A stretch of 64,000 bases of DNA from Arthrobacter cryoconiti. GTDB taxonomy: Bacteria > Actinomycetota > Actinomycetes > Actinomycetales > Micrococcaceae. A program made the position numbers and the translations under genes. The notes below the pieces were generated by a model. The model worked only from the letters and a program-made list of their open reading frames with translations. It was not told the DNA's origin and ran no database searches. This document shows positions 4,353 to 31,564 of this stretch, in pieces (position 1 is the stretch's first letter; every line of letters begins with the position of its first letter). The stretch is from contig NZ_JAJJBU010000003.1 in the NCBI RefSeq assembly GCF_020905375.1, forward strand, positions 248,001 through 312,000, given 5' to 3'.

Positions 4353-5318
4353 ATGGACGAAGATCAAGACCTGAACGCAGAGAGTTTCGGCGCTGACGCC
4401 GGCCAACCCGAAGAAGCAGACACGGATGACGGTGCCGAGGCTCACACACGGCGGCTGAAAACGGTGGGCGGCCTGGCCACAGGCGAGGGTTGCATCGTTT
4501 TGGCGGCCACGCCGATTGGCAATATGGGCGACGCCTCCGCTCGGCTCATTGCCTGGTTGGGAGCAGCCGATATTGTGGCCGCGGAAGACACCCGGCGCCT
4601 GCACCGCCTTGTTACGTCACTGGGAATCACAGTGACAGGGCGGATTGTGAGTTACCACGAGCACAATGAATCCGCGAAGACCCCAGAATTGTTGGCTGAA
4701 GTTCAGAGCGGAAAAGTATTGGTCATGGTCACGGATGCCGGAATGCCTTCGGTATCTGACCCTGGATTTCGCCTGGTGGAGGCCGCAGTCACTGCTGGTG
4801 TTCGCGTCACCGCCGCGCCCGGACCGTCTGCGGTTTTGACGGCGCTGGCCCTTTCCGGACTTCCCACCGATCGTTTTTGTTTCGAAGGATTCCTGCCACG
4901 TAAATCTGGTGAACGCGCTTCCCGCTTGCATGAGCTCTCCGTGGAACCGCGCACCATGGTTTTTTTTGAAGCTCCTCACCGGTTAGAGACAATGCTGAGG
5001 GCGCTACACACGGCATTTGGACCTGCGCGTCAAGGCGCCGTATGCCGGGAAATGACGAAGACGTACGAAGAAGTGATCCGCAAGTCGCTTGCTGGTCTGC
5101 TGGAATGGGCGGAGGAAGCGGAGATACGGGGTGAGATCGCGATTGTGGTTGCGGGAGCGCCGGTCGGAGATCTTGGTTCCAGCGAAGACCATGTGGCTGC
5201 TGTCAACGAGCTGATGGGCCAGGGAATGCGGCTCAAGGAGGCTGTCTCAGTGATTGCCCACGATGTCCACGTCAGCAAACGCGAACTTTACAGCGCCGTT
5301 CTGGCCTCCAGGGCTTAA
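4353..5318 (+). CDS. rsmI: 16S rRNA (cytidine1402-2'-O)-methyltransferase
   Basis: 321 residues from the ATG at 4353. The open frame extends upstream to 4155, but that part overlaps pmt and is not conserved-looking. RsmI methylates the 2'-hydroxyl of C1402 in the decoding centre using SAM. Visible family landmarks are GCIVLAATPIGNMGDAS at the start of the domain, AAEDTRR, SYHEHNE, VTDAGMPSVSDPG and AAPGPSAVLTALALSGLP, all in the expected order of a tetrapyrrole-methylase fold. An acidic stretch of about 45 residues precedes the domain, longer than in E. coli. It is divergent from pmt, with 55 bases between the two ATGs. Confidence 0.93.
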   Translation: MDEDQDLNAESFGADAGQPEEADTDDGAEAHTRRLKTVGGLATGEGCIVLAATPIGNMGDASARLIAWLGAADIVAAEDTRRLHRLVTSLGITVTGRIVSYHEHNESAKTPELLAEVQSGKVLVMVTDAGMPSVSDPGFRLVEAAVTAGVRVTAAPGPSAVLTALALSGLPTDRFCFEGFLPRKSGERASRLHELSVEPRTMVFFEAPHRLETMLRALHTAFGPARQGAVCREMTKTYEEVIRKSLAGLLEWAEEAEIRGEIAIVVAGAPVGDLGSSEDHVAAVNELMGQGMRLKEAVSVIAHDVHVSKRELYSAVLASRA

Positions 5319-26756: not shown

Positions 26757-29501
26757 TTGGTCCATCGATACGGGGATGGCCCGTCTGCTAATGAGCGTCG
26801 CCGGGATTTAGTGCACCCCTTTTGCCGCGATGAAGAGCTCCAAGCCATCATTCGGGATCTGAGCCAAGAGGCCTGCCGGGCCGTGTTACTAGAATCTGAT
26901 ATGGGTCTGGGTGCAACGACCCTTCTGCAGTCTGTCGCCGAACGGGCGCACGGTAATATGCCAGTTCTTGCCATCCACGGGACCCCGTCGCTGGCAAAAA
27001 TTCCCTTTGGCGTCTTGGCCGCAAACTTGCGAGCGAGTGGTCCCACTTCATTGCGGTCACCGGTGGAGATGATCCGTGACATGTTGGCACTTTTCTCCGA
27101 GACGGCCGTTGATAATTCGGGCAACTTAGATGATTCTCAAAATACGCCTTTAGTGATCTTGGATGAGGCGGAATTCATCGACCAACCCACAGCCGAGTTG
27201 CTGGTTCACTTGGTGCAGGTCGGCAGCGTGAAGCTTTTAGCGTCGTATCGTACAGGCAGCGAAATGACGGAGCCTCTTCCATCTTTATGGTCTAAAGGGG
27301 TGGCAGAAAGGATGCGGCTACTCCCTCTAACCCGGAGTGAGGGCCATGATTTTTGCTGTGCGATGCTCAGCGGAAGAGTGTTGCCCAGCAGTAGCTGGCA
27401 TATGTGGTCGGCGGCTGCTGGTAACCCGCTGTTGCTGTCCTTGATCATCTCCGACGCTTACCAGGACGGCCACCTCTCGCAAAGCAATGGCGCTTGGGTG
27501 GCTGACGCAGCAATGCTCCCGAATGGCGTGCAGTTGCAAGGCCTAGTACACGGTCAATTGCGGAACCTCTCGGCAGCGGCGGAGGAAGCCTTGGCGTTAG
27601 TTGCGCTCTCAGAGCCCGTGAAATCGGCCACCTTGAGGGAAATCGTTAGCGCAGAGGCGATTGAAGAACTGCTACGTCGGCGTATAGTCCATGCGCCAGC
27701 GTGGGAGCCAGGGCAACTGCGCCTTATCAACCCTGCATATGGTGACGTTATTAGGGCCACCTTGCCGCATACCAAGAGTCGCCGGCTTCACCTCCAGCTC
27801 ATTGAGAAACTCAATGCCGAGGCTCCCAACCCCGAGGCTCTCCTTCGCCGGACCATGTGGGCCTTGGATAGCGGCCTGCCAACTGATGATGGACAACTGT
27901 TGCAGGCGGGAACCTTCGCCTGCAAGTTGTACCAATCGGAGACAGGATTGCATTTGGCGTCGGCCATTACGGATCCTAAATTTCTCAGCCGTGCCAACTG
28001 TGTCAAAGCGCGGGCGAAATTTAACATGGGAGACTATGCTGCAGCGGTCGGACTATTGGAGGCGGCGGAAAAACAAGCCACAAACGTAGTCGATCTGCTA
28101 TTTGGTGGATTGTTAATGAACGCAGCTAAAGCGGCGATGGGCCTTCCGCTGAAAGCCTGTTATGAGGATGCCGCGAACTTACGTCGTCATGGCGAACAGC
28201 TTGCCCTGTCTGCGGAGAATGATTCAGAGCAGATAATATGGATCACTCAGGAGCGTGCCACTGTCCTTGAGCTGTTGACGATGTCCAGAGAAGGCCGTTA
28301 TTTGGAAATGGACAGCCCCATCCGCACAATTTTAGCCGCGTCCGCCCCTGCCTACGAGTTAGATCATAAGTTGCACTGCTCAATTGCGCTGGCAATGGAG
28401 TCAGAACGACTGAGTGCCCTGGGCCAGCCGGAAAGCGGCCTCACGGCAGCGTTCTCGGCCTTGGCTATGACCCATCAGGAGGACCGCGACGTTTATTTTC
28501 TGCCTGAAATGATCGTCACCCGCTCCCAAGTTGCAGCATTGCTTGCGGGGGACTGGGTGCAAGCTGAACAAATCTTGGCGCACTTTTCAGTGGACATGGG
28601 TCCTGCGACGATTTCCTTCGGCGGTAGCATCGACGTGGCACGGGGCATGGTCATGCTTCGACAGGGGCGGATGAGTTCGGCTTTACCCGTATTACGATCA
28701 GGGATCGTGTCTCTTCAACAAAGTGATCCACAGCAGATGCTGGGCCTGTGCACGGCCATGGCTATGTACGCTGGGGCGGGTACCGGTCACTTAGATGCTA
28801 CAGCGCCGAATTTGACGCCGTCGGGGGCTAATAATTGCATGTATCTTGTCTCGATTCATGAACAAGCCTTCGCTGCTGCAGCCCTTGAATACCGAGAGAA
28901 AAATGGTCAGGGGCTAACGGGACTGATTCGACTGGCCGATGATGCCGCCAAACGCGGACATCTAACCTTAGAGCTGACCGCGCTGGCCCTAGCTGTGGGA
29001 TTCGATCCCGACAGCTATATGGACAGGTTCGCCAGTGTTGCGGCCAAGGTTCAAGGCCCGTGGGCAGGCGCCGTGCGCACTTATGCTCGAGTCTGGGCCA
29101 GCGGGAACGCACGGGCACTCGTCGAAGCGGGGGAGGAACTTCTCTCAGCACGCATTTATCAGCATGCGCAGAAAGTCTTCCACAAGGCTTTTGCCCTTTC
29201 CTTAGGTAGTCACCAGCAAGACGTGGCGCTTAGGGCTCGTGACGGACTCGCACGGGTAGCTCACGCTACCGGCGAAACTGCTACGCAAGGAGTCACTGAG
29301 GGGGTGTCATCAGTGGAGAGCAAAGCTGTGCTCACCAAGAGGGAGGGTGAAATTGCGGCTTTGGCGGCGTCAGGTGCCTCCGATAAGGATATCGCGGAGA
29401 AATTAGGCGTTTCAGTACGCACCGTTGAAGGTCACCTCTACCGCACGTACGCAAAGTTGGGTATTGCTGCGAGGGAAGAGCTTGACCTCGTCTTGCCGTA
29501 A
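26757..29501 (+). CDS. Large LuxR family regulator with degenerate P-loop, second of the pair
   Basis: 914 residues from a TTG two bases after the stop of the preceding gene, so translation is probably coupled. Domain plan equals its neighbour: ATPase-like N-terminus, TPR-like middle, C-terminal LuxR DNA-binding domain (LTKREGEIAALAASG, SVRTVEGHLYRTYAKLG). The P-loop is damaged: where the neighbour has GPWGVGKT this one has SDMGLGAT (47-54), lacking both the first Gly and the nucleotide-binding Lys, whereas the Walker B region VILDEAEF (133-140) is kept. It may not bind ATP itself and may act with the neighbour as a heteromer. Ends 491 bases before the first exopolysaccharide gene. Confidence 0.85.
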   Translation: MVHRYGDGPSANERRRDLVHPFCRDEELQAIIRDLSQEACRAVLLESDMGLGATTLLQSVAERAHGNMPVLAIHGTPSLAKIPFGVLAANLRASGPTSLRSPVEMIRDMLALFSETAVDNSGNLDDSQNTPLVILDEAEFIDQPTAELLVHLVQVGSVKLLASYRTGSEMTEPLPSLWSKGVAERMRLLPLTRSEGHDFCCAMLSGRVLPSSSWHMWSAAAGNPLLLSLIISDAYQDGHLSQSNGAWVADAAMLPNGVQLQGLVHGQLRNLSAAAEEALALVALSEPVKSATLREIVSAEAIEELLRRRIVHAPAWEPGQLRLINPAYGDVIRATLPHTKSRRLHLQLIEKLNAEAPNPEALLRRTMWALDSGLPTDDGQLLQAGTFACKLYQSETGLHLASAITDPKFLSRANCVKARAKFNMGDYAAAVGLLEAAEKQATNVVDLLFGGLLMNAAKAAMGLPLKACYEDAANLRRHGEQLALSAENDSEQIIWITQERATVLELLTMSREGRYLEMDSPIRTILAASAPAYELDHKLHCSIALAMESERLSALGQPESGLTAAFSALAMTHQEDRDVYFLPEMIVTRSQVAALLAGDWVQAEQILAHFSVDMGPATISFGGSIDVARGMVMLRQGRMSSALPVLRSGIVSLQQSDPQQMLGLCTAMAMYAGAGTGHLDATAPNLTPSGANNCMYLVSIHEQAFAAAALEYREKNGQGLTGLIRLADDAAKRGHLTLELTALALAVGFDPDSYMDRFASVAAKVQGPWAGAVRTYARVWASGNARALVEAGEELLSARIYQHAQKVFHKAFALSLGSHQQDVALRARDGLARVAHATGETATQGVTEGVSSVESKAVLTKREGEIAALAASGASDKDIAEKLGVSVRTVEGHLYRTYAKLGIAAREELDLVLP

Positions 29502-29515
29502 TACAGGTATGAATT

Positions 29516-29579
29516 CGAGTAGCTCCGAGTACCGACGAGTACTTACGGGTAGTCACGCAAGTACTTAAGCGAGTACTGC
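29516..29579. promoter_or_regulatory. Helically phased GAGTA direct-repeat array
   Basis: Four consecutive 10-bp units start at 29516, 29526, 29536 and 29546 (cgagtagctc, cgagtaccga, cgagtactta, cgggtagtca), followed by two 12-bp units at 29556 and 29568 (cgcaagtactta, agcgagtactgc). A further copy, cgggtagtcac, stands at 29611. Such phased direct repeats place the same face of the helix toward a protein and look like an operator array, here between the LuxR pair and the exopolysaccharide genes. Confidence 0.6.
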
Positions 29580-29715
29580 CCCGTTTCTAAGTACCCTTAC
29601 TCCGACTAAACGGGTAGTCACCACGCGTGTGTACGCGTCCTTGAGGCCGTTAACTTGAAGTATCCCACCGGGTACAAGTTCAAGAGGTCTCGAATGTTTA
29701 GTCTGCAGCACACGG

Positions 29716-29930
29716 TGGTGCTTCCTGCCGGGGGAGAAAATCTCAACCTCGGGGCGCACCAAAGGACGGATGTTACCTTCCCGTCCCCTAACCCCAGGTT
29801 GGAAACCCTGTCCGTCCTTCAAGGACGGACTCCCTATTCGGAGCCGGCGACGGATAAGCCTTCTGAGACCAAGGCTTTCCCCCAGCCGTCGTCGGCTCCC
29901 TTGTTTTATTTCCAGGCTCAATCCGGAGCC
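29716..29930 (+). ncRNA. Structured leader with alternative stems upstream of the exopolysaccharide operon
   Basis: Stems seen: P1 TGGTGC/GCACCA (29716-29721 with 29756-29761) enclosing GAGA-AAA-TCTC; P2 GTCCGTCCTT/AAGGACGGAC (29810-29819 with 29821-29830); P3 with 14-bp arms at 29840-29853 and 29886-29899 (13 Watson-Crick pairs and one G-U) enclosing AAGCCTT/AAGGCTT (29856-29877), then a T-rich run cttgttttattt; P4 GGCTC/GAGCC (29915-29930). AAGGACGGA occurs at 29762 and again at 29821, both complementary to TCCGTCCTT at 29811, so two pairings exclude each other; GGAGCC at 29840 and 29925 likewise compete for GGCTCC at 29894. This is how an attenuator or riboswitch expression platform looks. 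It matches no riboswitch class I know. The rest of the 491-bp gap has no credible gene. Confidence 0.5.
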
Positions 29931-29992
29931 CAGAAAAGCAGCCCCATGTACGCCGTTGACCATCTGCTGCCGTTTAAGCCGGTGTCGCTGTC

Positions 29993-31564
29993 GTGACGAC
30001 CATCAAGACACAGAAGCATGGCAACAATCGGGTTTCCTCACCCAAAATAGGCACAAAGCCTGCGCCTACGGCAGTTTCCCACAAGCACAGCGTCTGGGAC
30101 GAGACCACGCATTCAAAGGATGCCCAGATTGCCAAATCTGGACGCCGTTGGTGGACTGCCTATAGCTGGCGGTTGCGTATCACCGATCTACTAGTCATCA
30201 CGAGCGTGACGTTTCTAGCATTCTCGCTGCGGTTTGGACTTGACGATCCAACTGAACGCGAACGCTATGGACAAGTTGGCTACTTTTGGTTGTCCGTGGG
30301 TATAGCTATTTTGTGGATGGCCGATCTCGAAATATGCAGAAGCCGTGAGAAGCGTGTTTTTGGCGGTGGAGTGGTGGAGTACCGCCGTGTACTTGGATCC
30401 ACAGTTAGAGTATTTGGTTCCGTGGCCATTGTTATGGCCGTCCTCAAAGTTGATGTTATTCGTGGATTCTTTGCAGTGGCCCTACCACTGGGCATCGCTT
30501 TGTTACTACTAAGCCGCTGGCTGTGGCGCCAATGGCTGAGTAAACAACGCAAAAACGGAAACTATCTCTCCGACGTGGTGGTGCTTGGTAGCGCAGTTGA
30601 CGTTGAATACGTCATTCACCAATTGCGCACGAATTTGAGTGCAGGGTACCGGGTAGCTGGCGCCGCGCTTTCTTCTCTTGATAAATCCATGGAACTGCGG
30701 CCGCCGTGGTACAAGATTCCGGTGTTATCCACCATGGCTGATATTTCACGCGTGGTGTTGGTTACAGGAGCGGATGCAGTGATTGTTGCAGGCCCGTTGC
30801 CTGGCGGCCCAGAAACCATTCAGCAACTCGGCTGGCGTCTTGAAGATCTGTCCACAGAATTGGTGCTCGCTTCGAACCTAACCAATATTGCCGGTCCACG
30901 GGTTCATTTCCGTCCGGTAGAAGGTTTGCCACTAATGCATGTGGAACTTCCCCAATATTCAGGTGGAAAGCACATTTTTAAGCGTGCTATGGACATAATT
31001 CTCTCTTCATTTGCACTTTTGGTCCTGATTCCTGTCCTCCTGGCTCTGACACTCATAGTTCGGATGGACAGCTCCGGGCCGGCATTCTTTCGGCAGGAAC
31101 GAGTGGGACGCAACGGAGAGTCCTTCAAGATGTATAAATTCCGTTCCATGGTGGTGGATGCCGAAGAAAAGCTCGTTGGATTAGCGAAGCAGAACGAAAC
31201 AGATGGACTCATGTTCAAAATGGCCAACGATCCCCGGGTAACTCGGTGTGGTCGCTGGATGCGGAAATTTTCGCTGGATGAGCTTCCACAATTTTGGAAC
31301 GTTTTGCTCGGAAACATGAGCTTGGTAGGCCCAAGGCCCCCATTGGCAACTGAAGTTGCCCACTATGAGCAGCCCACACATCGACGCCTGTTAATAAAGC
31401 CCGGAATTACTGGCCTATGGCAGGTCAGCGGACGCTCGGATCTGAAATGGGAAGAAGCCGTTCGCTTGGATCTCTATTACGTTGAAAATTGGTCATTCAT
31501 GGGAGACATCGTGATCCTGTGGAGGACATTTAGGGCGATGCGAAGTTCGGCAGGTGCTTACTAG
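29993..31564 (+). CDS. Polyprenyl-phosphate sugar-1-phosphate transferase (priming enzyme of exopolysaccharide synthesis)
   Basis: 523 residues, GTG start. The N-terminal half has a basic soluble leader of about 55 residues, some four to five membrane segments (about 60-185) and a CoA-binding-like region. The C-terminal half (about 325-520) is the bacterial sugar transferase domain: RAMDIILSSFALLVLIPVLL, FFRQERVGRNGESFKMYKFRSM, SLDELPQFWNVLLGNMSLVGPRPP and KPGITGLWQVSGRS. It loads the first sugar phosphate onto undecaprenyl phosphate at the inner membrane face, the committed step. Which sugar cannot be read from sequence. First gene behind the structured leader, start two bases before the next gene. 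Confidence 0.9.
   Translation: MTTIKTQKHGNNRVSSPKIGTKPAPTAVSHKHSVWDETTHSKDAQIAKSGRRWWTAYSWRLRITDLLVITSVTFLAFSLRFGLDDPTERERYGQVGYFWLSVGIAILWMADLEICRSREKRVFGGGVVEYRRVLGSTVRVFGSVAIVMAVLKVDVIRGFFAVALPLGIALLLLSRWLWRQWLSKQRKNGNYLSDVVVLGSAVDVEYVIHQLRTNLSAGYRVAGAALSSLDKSMELRPPWYKIPVLSTMADISRVVLVTGADAVIVAGPLPGGPETIQQLGWRLEDLSTELVLASNLTNIAGPRVHFRPVEGLPLMHVELPQYSGGKHIFKRAMDIILSSFALLVLIPVLLALTLIVRMDSSGPAFFRQERVGRNGESFKMYKFRSMVVDAEEKLVGLAKQNETDGLMFKMANDPRVTRCGRWMRKFSLDELPQFWNVLLGNMSLVGPRPPLATEVAHYEQPTHRRLLIKPGITGLWQVSGRSDLKWEEAVRLDLYYVENWSFMGDIVILWRTFRAMRSSAGAY

Follow-up and report, generated by a model that had tools for sequence, protein, structure and literature searches.

A Conserved Structured RNA inside an Overlapping Leader Reading Frame Upstream of an Exopolysaccharide Operon in Arthrobacter

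Introduction

Elements for LoaP/RfaH-type antitermination, which works through a paralogue of NusG, lie at the start of long polysaccharide or similar operons, and a structured RNA known as EAR is tied to the eps exopolysaccharide operons of Bacillus. The nearest published case that we found to the locus described here is the leader of ppe2 in Mycobacterium tuberculosis, where a B12 riboswitch is accompanied by an upstream open reading frame (uORF), uPPE2, that overlaps the next gene by AUGA (PMC11260477). There, downstream expression is reported to require translation of the leader, mainly through termination-reinitiation, and the RNA is proposed to be a Class IIb variant of the B12 riboswitch (PMC11260477). 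In Corynebacterium, the conserved region of the ilvB-II motif, associated with ilvBNC, reportedly turned out to involve a uORF (PMC10272879).

Here, we analyze a leader from Arthrobacter cryoconiti that lies in a 64,000-nucleotide stretch of DNA, the whole of which is called the window below. A preliminary description, made from the letters of the window, had placed a structured leader between large LuxR regulator genes and an exopolysaccharide operon, upstream of its priming transferase gene, and this is supported by our analysis. That description missed an overlapping leader ORF, a LuxR-type box, and relatives of the conserved core element, P3, at other places. Because the stop codon of this ORF overlaps the start of the first enzyme gene, expression of the cluster probably depends in part on whether the leader is translated, and not on an attenuator of the classical type.

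Organization of the Locus

All features of the locus lie on the forward strand. The gene for a large LuxR regulator of 914 amino acids (26757-29501) has its 3′ end 338 nt before P3, and the first gene of the exopolysaccharide operon codes for the priming sugar transferase (Bac_transf, 29993-31564). The intervening region opens with the LuxR-type box CGGGTAGTCACCACGCGTGTGT (29611-29632, matrix score 23.0), to which a LuxR protein would bind, followed by the -10-like hexamer TTAACT (29650-29655), recognized in a by-eye comparison of the sequences 3′ of the box. Transcription in the window would be expected to start near 29662; a hairpin drawn by the fold at about 29641-29693 was dropped because it uses bases 5′ of this point. 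The putative ribosome-binding site of the leader ORF contains GGTCTC (29686-29691), the reverse complement of the GAGACC in the P3 loop, and two bases after it is the ATG of a 100-codon ORF (29694-29996) that runs through P3 and ends in a TGA (29994-29996) overlapping the GTG of the transferase gene at 29993, in the form GTGA.

Within this ORF lies a candidate upstream hairpin region, GCACACGGTGGTGC...GCGCACC (29710-29761), delineated by eye and common to some leaders of the genus. It is followed by P2 (29810-29830), a short hairpin of variable sequence predicted by folding directly 5′ of P3, and by P3 itself (29839-29900), the conserved structured core. P3 is built of outer arms (29840-29853/29886-29899) and inner arms (29856-29862/29871-29877), an apical loop CUGAGACC (29863-29870), and an internal loop CCCCCAG (29879-29885). 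The letters reported earlier for this region are correct: AAGGACGGA occurs at 29762-29770 and 29821-29829, with its complement TCCGTCCTT at 29811-29819, and the P3 arms, the nested 7-bp hairpin, and the pair ATTCGGAGCC/ATCCGGAGCC are all present in the window.

P3 Is Supported as a Structured RNA Family

The claim of strong stems held up well: the main stem of P3 is far beyond chance, and the segment spanning P2 and P3 (29800-29920) folds at -56.2 kcal/mol (z -6.5), a value attained by none of 200 shuffles. The wider interval 29640-29995, for which folding had been proposed, gave a z of -4.67 on the sense strand versus -3.16 on the other strand. P3 scores 92.4 bits in sense and 25.9 bits in antisense orientation.

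We then assessed covariation among homologous leaders and found P3 to be kept through compensatory changes. In a first alignment of 30 P3 sequences (24 distinct), 99.4% of the cells are paired, and 12 of the 20 pairs show changes on both sides; among 500 shuffles, none attained the observed value on four of the five measures used, and 6 did so on the remaining one, statistics to be read with the structure having been chosen on this same alignment. A second, anchor-based count covered 88 of 94 distinct sequences, the six lacking GAGACC being left out. Here, double changes occur at 8 of 8 inner and 10 of 13 outer positions, and the number paired exceeds all 300 shuffles at five of the inner and seven of the outer positions, the remaining positions being too uniform to exceed shuffles. 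The unpaired letters are also constrained: the loop reads YUGAGACC in 83 of these 88 sequences and YCGAGACC in the other 5, and a C-run ending in AG, corresponding to a CCAG-type internal loop, is present in 85. Thus, with compensatory changes in the stems and conserved letters in the loops, the assignment of P3 to a structured RNA family is well supported by the comparison. The P2 hairpin recurs 5′ of P3 in many copies, with a mean z of -1.28 and 59 of 129 copies under -1.5.

The preliminary description recognized no class for this RNA, and none of the 4227 families of Rfam 15 passed its gathering threshold at P3, the sole match in the window being a tRNA elsewhere. Under relaxed settings, the one match near P3 reached 11.3 bits (E 3.3), and 13 related loci returned one tRNA and nothing else. 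No description of the element was found among the listed titles and abstract openings of open-licence papers.

Phyletic Distribution and Copy Number

With 29500-30000 as the query, a DNA-level search gave matches in 24 of 58 genomes, including the window's own, mostly over the P3 part only. The covariance model R1, built from 30 P3 sequences, recovered P3 at 29 places in 22 of 23 genomes of the genus. Sampling more widely, under stricter filters by which weak matches are lost, we recovered it in 22 of 396 genomes of the order, 21 of them from six genera of the same family, and in 4 of 394 genomes of the class, all from this family. The remaining match in the order-wide sample (G309) is 38 nt long and scores nearly equally on both strands. 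Occurrence beyond the family was considered and rejected on these two samples. A consensus pattern run over named genomes returned at least 117 stretches, and a second model, R2, confirmed 79 of 80 among the matches listed, the exception being from Thiorhodococcus. The confirmed hosts among those listed are Arthrobacter, Pseudarthrobacter, Tersicoccus, a Micrococcaceae assembly, and one record labelled Sporosarcina, a label that is probably wrong. A scan of viral contigs with a loose pattern gave at least 120 stretches, which were left out of the P3 counts.

Copy numbers are low, with a single copy in the window's own genome and up to five (G215) among 15 genomes searched with R2 at E 0.001. 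A mobile or phage repeat was considered and rejected, given the lack of a phage match, the single plasmid record, and the single copy in the window's own genome. That plasmid record concerns G012, whose contig 2 (11169 bp, labelled plasmid) carries a second leader copy at 4503-4564 that equals the chromosomal one over the compared stretch; it may be an excised or misassembled duplicate. A different kind of duplication is seen in L203 (2501-2628, the same place as L247 1871-1998), where a transferase gene is preceded by a tandem pair of P3 elements separated by four bases, with a box upstream (score 14.9) and a box-like sequence, noted by eye, also on the 3′ side.

A Recurrent Leader ORF That Overlaps the Next Start Codon

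To place the window's ORF in context, we collected 33 non-redundant loci in which GGTCTC or GGTTTC is followed by an ATG within 13 nt. The ORF crosses P3 in 26 of these, and in 18 of the 26 its end forms an RTGA with the start of a following ORF that is 120 codons or longer. In 3 others (L185, L206, and L273), the overlap with the next start has a different offset. One further crossing ORF (L194) is fused in frame to a LuxR gene, giving 902 codons, with the transferase replaced, and four have no nearby start (L188, L196, L202, and L161). Overlap with the next start is therefore seen in 21 of the 26, loci that are related to each other and hence do not count as independent. For L204, a longer ORF from a second ATG was scored; the ORF that ends at the GTGA of the transferase gene is the one from the ATG at -145. 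The sequence examined for L252 and L263 stops within the downstream ORF. Similar leader ORFs outside the 13-nt rule are found in L198 and L205. Other copies are devoid of a P3-crossing ORF: the ORF ends inside P3 in L155-157 and L231, ends before it in L173 and L283, and does not cross it in L226, while L203 and L183 have no leader ORF. In L196, the P3 leader sits between opposite-strand LuxR genes with its ORF intact and no gene behind it.

All crossing ORFs but that of L195 enter P3 in one frame (taking the -145 start for L204). On the far side of P3, all three frames are represented, owing to variation in its length and in the point of entry, and the overlap with the next start is kept despite a differing frame after P3 in L246, L263, L266, L273, and L195. 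A single open leader means little, since the frame stays open in 5% (the window and L184) to 33% of shuffles per crossing locus, with L194 at 0%; the weight therefore rests on the repeated overlap. On these comparisons, a start-overlapping leader ORF is well supported as a recurrent feature of the relatives.

A conserved leader peptide was considered and is not supported: non-synonymous codons outnumber synonymous ones in all seven leader pairs compared, from 14:13 (L185/L206) to 29:3, in a tally by codon count rather than a formal dN/dS. Outside P2 and P3, the differences at codon positions 1, 2, and 3 number 9, 9, and 15 in L185/L206, a modest third-position excess; 24, 15, and 18 in L184/L197; 17, 22, and 23 in L189/L199; and 41, 33, and 37 in L187/L190. 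While some weak coding constraint on the peptide is possible on these figures, it is the openness of the frame and the overlap that seem to be kept rather than the peptide.

The LuxR-Type Box and the Promoter Region

A box resembling CGAGTAGTGACCACTCGTGT is found in the interval that separates the LuxR gene from the leader. We captured it in a matrix trained by eye on 20 loci, one of whose sites is the window's own box, and applied a cut-off score of 10. By this measure, a box lies upstream of 102 of 129 P3 copies, versus 34 of 129 in a control that took the best of 20 single-base shuffles. With the training loci set aside, the figure is 83 of 109, among which close relatives of those loci remain; 19 of the 20 training loci pass, and the one that fails, L187, has its box further away. 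Matches to the box pattern are not confined to the vicinity of P3; contig 11 of G058, for instance, has three elsewhere. In 65 of the 114 copies with enough sequence, a same-strand LuxR gene ends within 650 nt upstream, and the upstream LuxR protein presumably binds the box. A variant box with GCATTC or GCGTTC accompanies a set of copies (L164, L212, L254, L259, L270, and L275) in which P3 occupies one position near an arabinofuranosidase-like gene in several genomes.

The distance between box and P3 is short in several copies, the box ending 29-30 nt before P3 in L213, L216, L224, L232, L278, and L282, and 31 nt before it in L176; at this spacing, P3 would sit at the 5′ end of the RNA.

Gene Contexts and Free-Standing Copies

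For 114 P3 copies, we used simple gene calls to identify the nearest downstream gene on the same strand, up to a distance of 700 nt: it belongs to the transferase cluster in 28, the sufS-like cluster in 24, and the LuxR cluster in 9, while 24 have none. Within the genus, the gene after P3 is mostly the priming transferase. In five loci (L183, L198, L201, L203, and L205), genes of the inositol-phosphatase, PAPS-reductase-like, or EF-Tu-like GTPase clusters come next, suggesting a sulfated polymer, and in two others (L161 and L202) the following gene is of a polysaccharide deacetylase cluster. In many Pseudarthrobacter-like genomes, P3 instead lies between a LuxR gene and sufS/sufU-like genes, and further copies adjoin unrelated genes. 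This variety in the first downstream genes of the 114 copies differs from the one-pathway association expected of a metabolite riboswitch. The riboswitch half of the preliminary reading is possible; the neighbours suggest no ligand.

Terminator-like hairpins lie 3′ of P3 in 6 of 120 loci under a strict scan, versus 1.7% in shuffles. The clearest free-standing unit is L278, which presents a box, a -10-like TACTGT, P3, and a strong terminator in a row. Some P3 copies look like free-standing small RNAs.

Complementarity between the P3 Loop and the Leader Ribosome Site

Of 119 regions upstream of P3, 45 contain the hexamer GGTCTC and 6 contain GAGACC, its reverse complement; downstream, GGTCTC is present in 14 of 119. 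In another count it was present in 30 of 59, where shuffles averaged 5.6. Leader ORFs of the window's genus begin at this hexamer, as do those of Arthrobacter sp. SO5 (L246), Arthrobacter sp. Bi26 (L263), A. silvisoli (L266), and A. gallicola (L252). The predicted duplex between loop and ribosome site amounts to -11.8 kcal/mol in the window and -12.4 kcal/mol in L184. As the loop is GAGACC almost everywhere, this pairing lies beyond the reach of covariation. Two observations speak against it: in the fold predicted for the window, most of GGUCUC is engaged with other partners, and, by eye, several Pseudarthrobacter copies have GGCCTC in place of GGTCTC with the loop still GAGACC, so that one pair with the loop would break. 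GGCCTC is not enriched, with 15 of 119 upstream versus 17 downstream.

Beyond the leaders, AAGGTCTCA-ATG has 56 matches in 23 genomes, 13 of them P3 leaders, versus 70 for an anagram (and 7 for a backwards control); this count, being below that of the anagram, gives no sign of a trans regulon, and a genome-wide set of GGTCTCA ribosome sites was rejected for want of an excess over the anagram in these genomes. Separately, AAGGTCTCACTCGATG recurs in G015, G012, G016, G013, and G007, where it probably belongs to one conserved gene unrelated to P3. The LuxR genes of L160, L263, L252, L268, and L221 have GGTCTC just 5′ of their likely start codons, hinting at feedback, with counts over nearby genes that are not outstanding: 25 possible starts with GGTCTC among 681 genes near P3, versus an anagram median of 19 and a highest value of 84.

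A Proposed Translation-Coupled Leader and the Alternatives

We consider a translation-coupled leader with a structured RNA lock to be the best explanation, with a probability of roughly 0.45. A LuxR-type regulator would switch on the promoter at about 29611-29655, yielding a transcript that opens with the leader ORF, from its GGUCUC-containing ribosome site through P3. Ribosomes translating the leader would melt P3 and reach the transferase gene by termination-reinitiation at the overlapping GTGA. If the leader is left untranslated, P3 would fold and its loop UGAGACC would pair with GGUCUC(A/G) at the leader ribosome site, so that neither the leader nor the transferase is expressed and the RNA, lacking ribosomes, is exposed to early termination or to decay. 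The covariation of P3, the overlapping ORF in many relatives, the box, and the sense-strand enrichment of GGTCTC are shown by the comparison, whereas binding of the box by the LuxR protein, translation of the leader, reinitiation as the mode of coupling, and the loop-to-ribosome-site pairing are what we infer. That only 28 of the 114 copies precede the transferase gene was counted against this explanation.

The P3 module would further be reused elsewhere behind the same type of box, apparently also in free-standing small RNAs. Generalizing, P3 might be a new riboregulatory module of the Micrococcaceae, placed behind a single LuxR-type promoter architecture and serving two roles, a lock in translated, start-overlapping leader ORFs and a small RNA that stands alone, with the loop capturing the leader's ribosome site and selection keeping translation through the RNA in any frame rather than the peptide. 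We offer this broader proposal tentatively and hold it to be doubtful in its full extent.

The strongest rival is that P3 is a binding site for a protein or a small ligand, which would make it a novel aptamer or protein-binding element close to the start of the transcripts behind this box, with the leader ORF being a read-out special to exopolysaccharide operons. The near-invariant letters of the apical and internal loops (GAGACC in 88 of 94) around a variable inner stem, the six copies with a box 29-30 nt before P3, and the many copies without a leader ORF all fit such a site. However, the lack of a common downstream function is unusual for a metabolite riboswitch, no partner protein was found, and the conserved GGTCTC would go unexplained. 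We regard this alternative as possible but not probable.

Less likely by far is that P3 marks a LuxR-activated, base-pairing small RNA, of which the leader copies are a cis target or a fused version. The unit of L278, from box to terminator, speaks for this reading, as do the copies of L176, L213, and L216, which lie between genes or opposite a neighbouring one; yet the window's own genome has one copy, and the candidate target site shows no genome-wide excess over the anagram. Improbable too, and somewhat more so, is a role of P3 in processive antitermination, by which RNA polymerase would be modified for a long operon in the manner of EAR or LoaP targets. P3 does head a long exopolysaccharide operon in the window, and terminator-like hairpins after P3 exceed their shuffled frequency. 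Against this, the loci with such hairpins are a small minority, many copies do not precede long operons, there is no Rfam match, and the window's genome has one NusG (PF02357 match, E 0.001); the LoaP-type version was rejected on this single NusG, with no paralogue.

The preliminary description had proposed an attenuator or riboswitch on account of two sets of competing partners and a T-rich run after P3. Both sets exist in the window, but among 20 homologous leaders the P2-set 9-mer is repeated upstream in 1, the window itself, and the hexamer of the P3 5′ arm recurs within 60 nt after P3 in 2, the window and L205. The T-rich run likewise stands as a feature of the window and falls as a conserved one: from 1 to 9 of the 15 bases after P3 are T, with a mean of 5.15 over the 20 leaders and the window highest. 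A terminator scan of 29480-30060 gave one site versus 0.7 ± 0.8 in shuffles. With neither the competing sets nor the T-run conserved, and with loop letters conserved that a terminator presumably would not need, a classical transcription attenuator with mutually exclusive stems is the least likely of the explanations, despite the repeats and T-rich run of the window.

Comparison with Known Systems

P3 represents a conserved RNA family that Rfam 15 lacks, and its hosts are a widespread group of soil bacteria. Conservation seems to act on the fold and on the reading frame independently: the RNA stays nearly unchanged while the peptide drifts and the frame shifts. The locus offers a natural test case for whether translation through a structured RNA, rather than the peptide, gates a polysaccharide operon, and the role of the GAGACC/GGUCUC site pair is also made directly testable.

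Set against the described systems, P3 resembles EAR in being a structured RNA tied to an exopolysaccharide operon and differs in lacking an Rfam match and occurring also in unrelated contexts; it differs from LoaP/RfaH systems in that its host genome has one NusG only. With the ilvB-II motif it shares a conserved region 5′ of an actinobacterial operon with a uORF (PMC10272879); unlike there, at P3 the RNA fold is kept and the peptide is not visibly kept. Like the ppe2 leader, it combines a structured leader RNA with a short ORF overlapping the next gene (PMC11260477). Unlike in ppe2, the coupling at P3 is deduced from sequence, and P3 matches none of the Rfam 15 families, is enclosed in full by the leader ORF, and stands behind a LuxR-type box.
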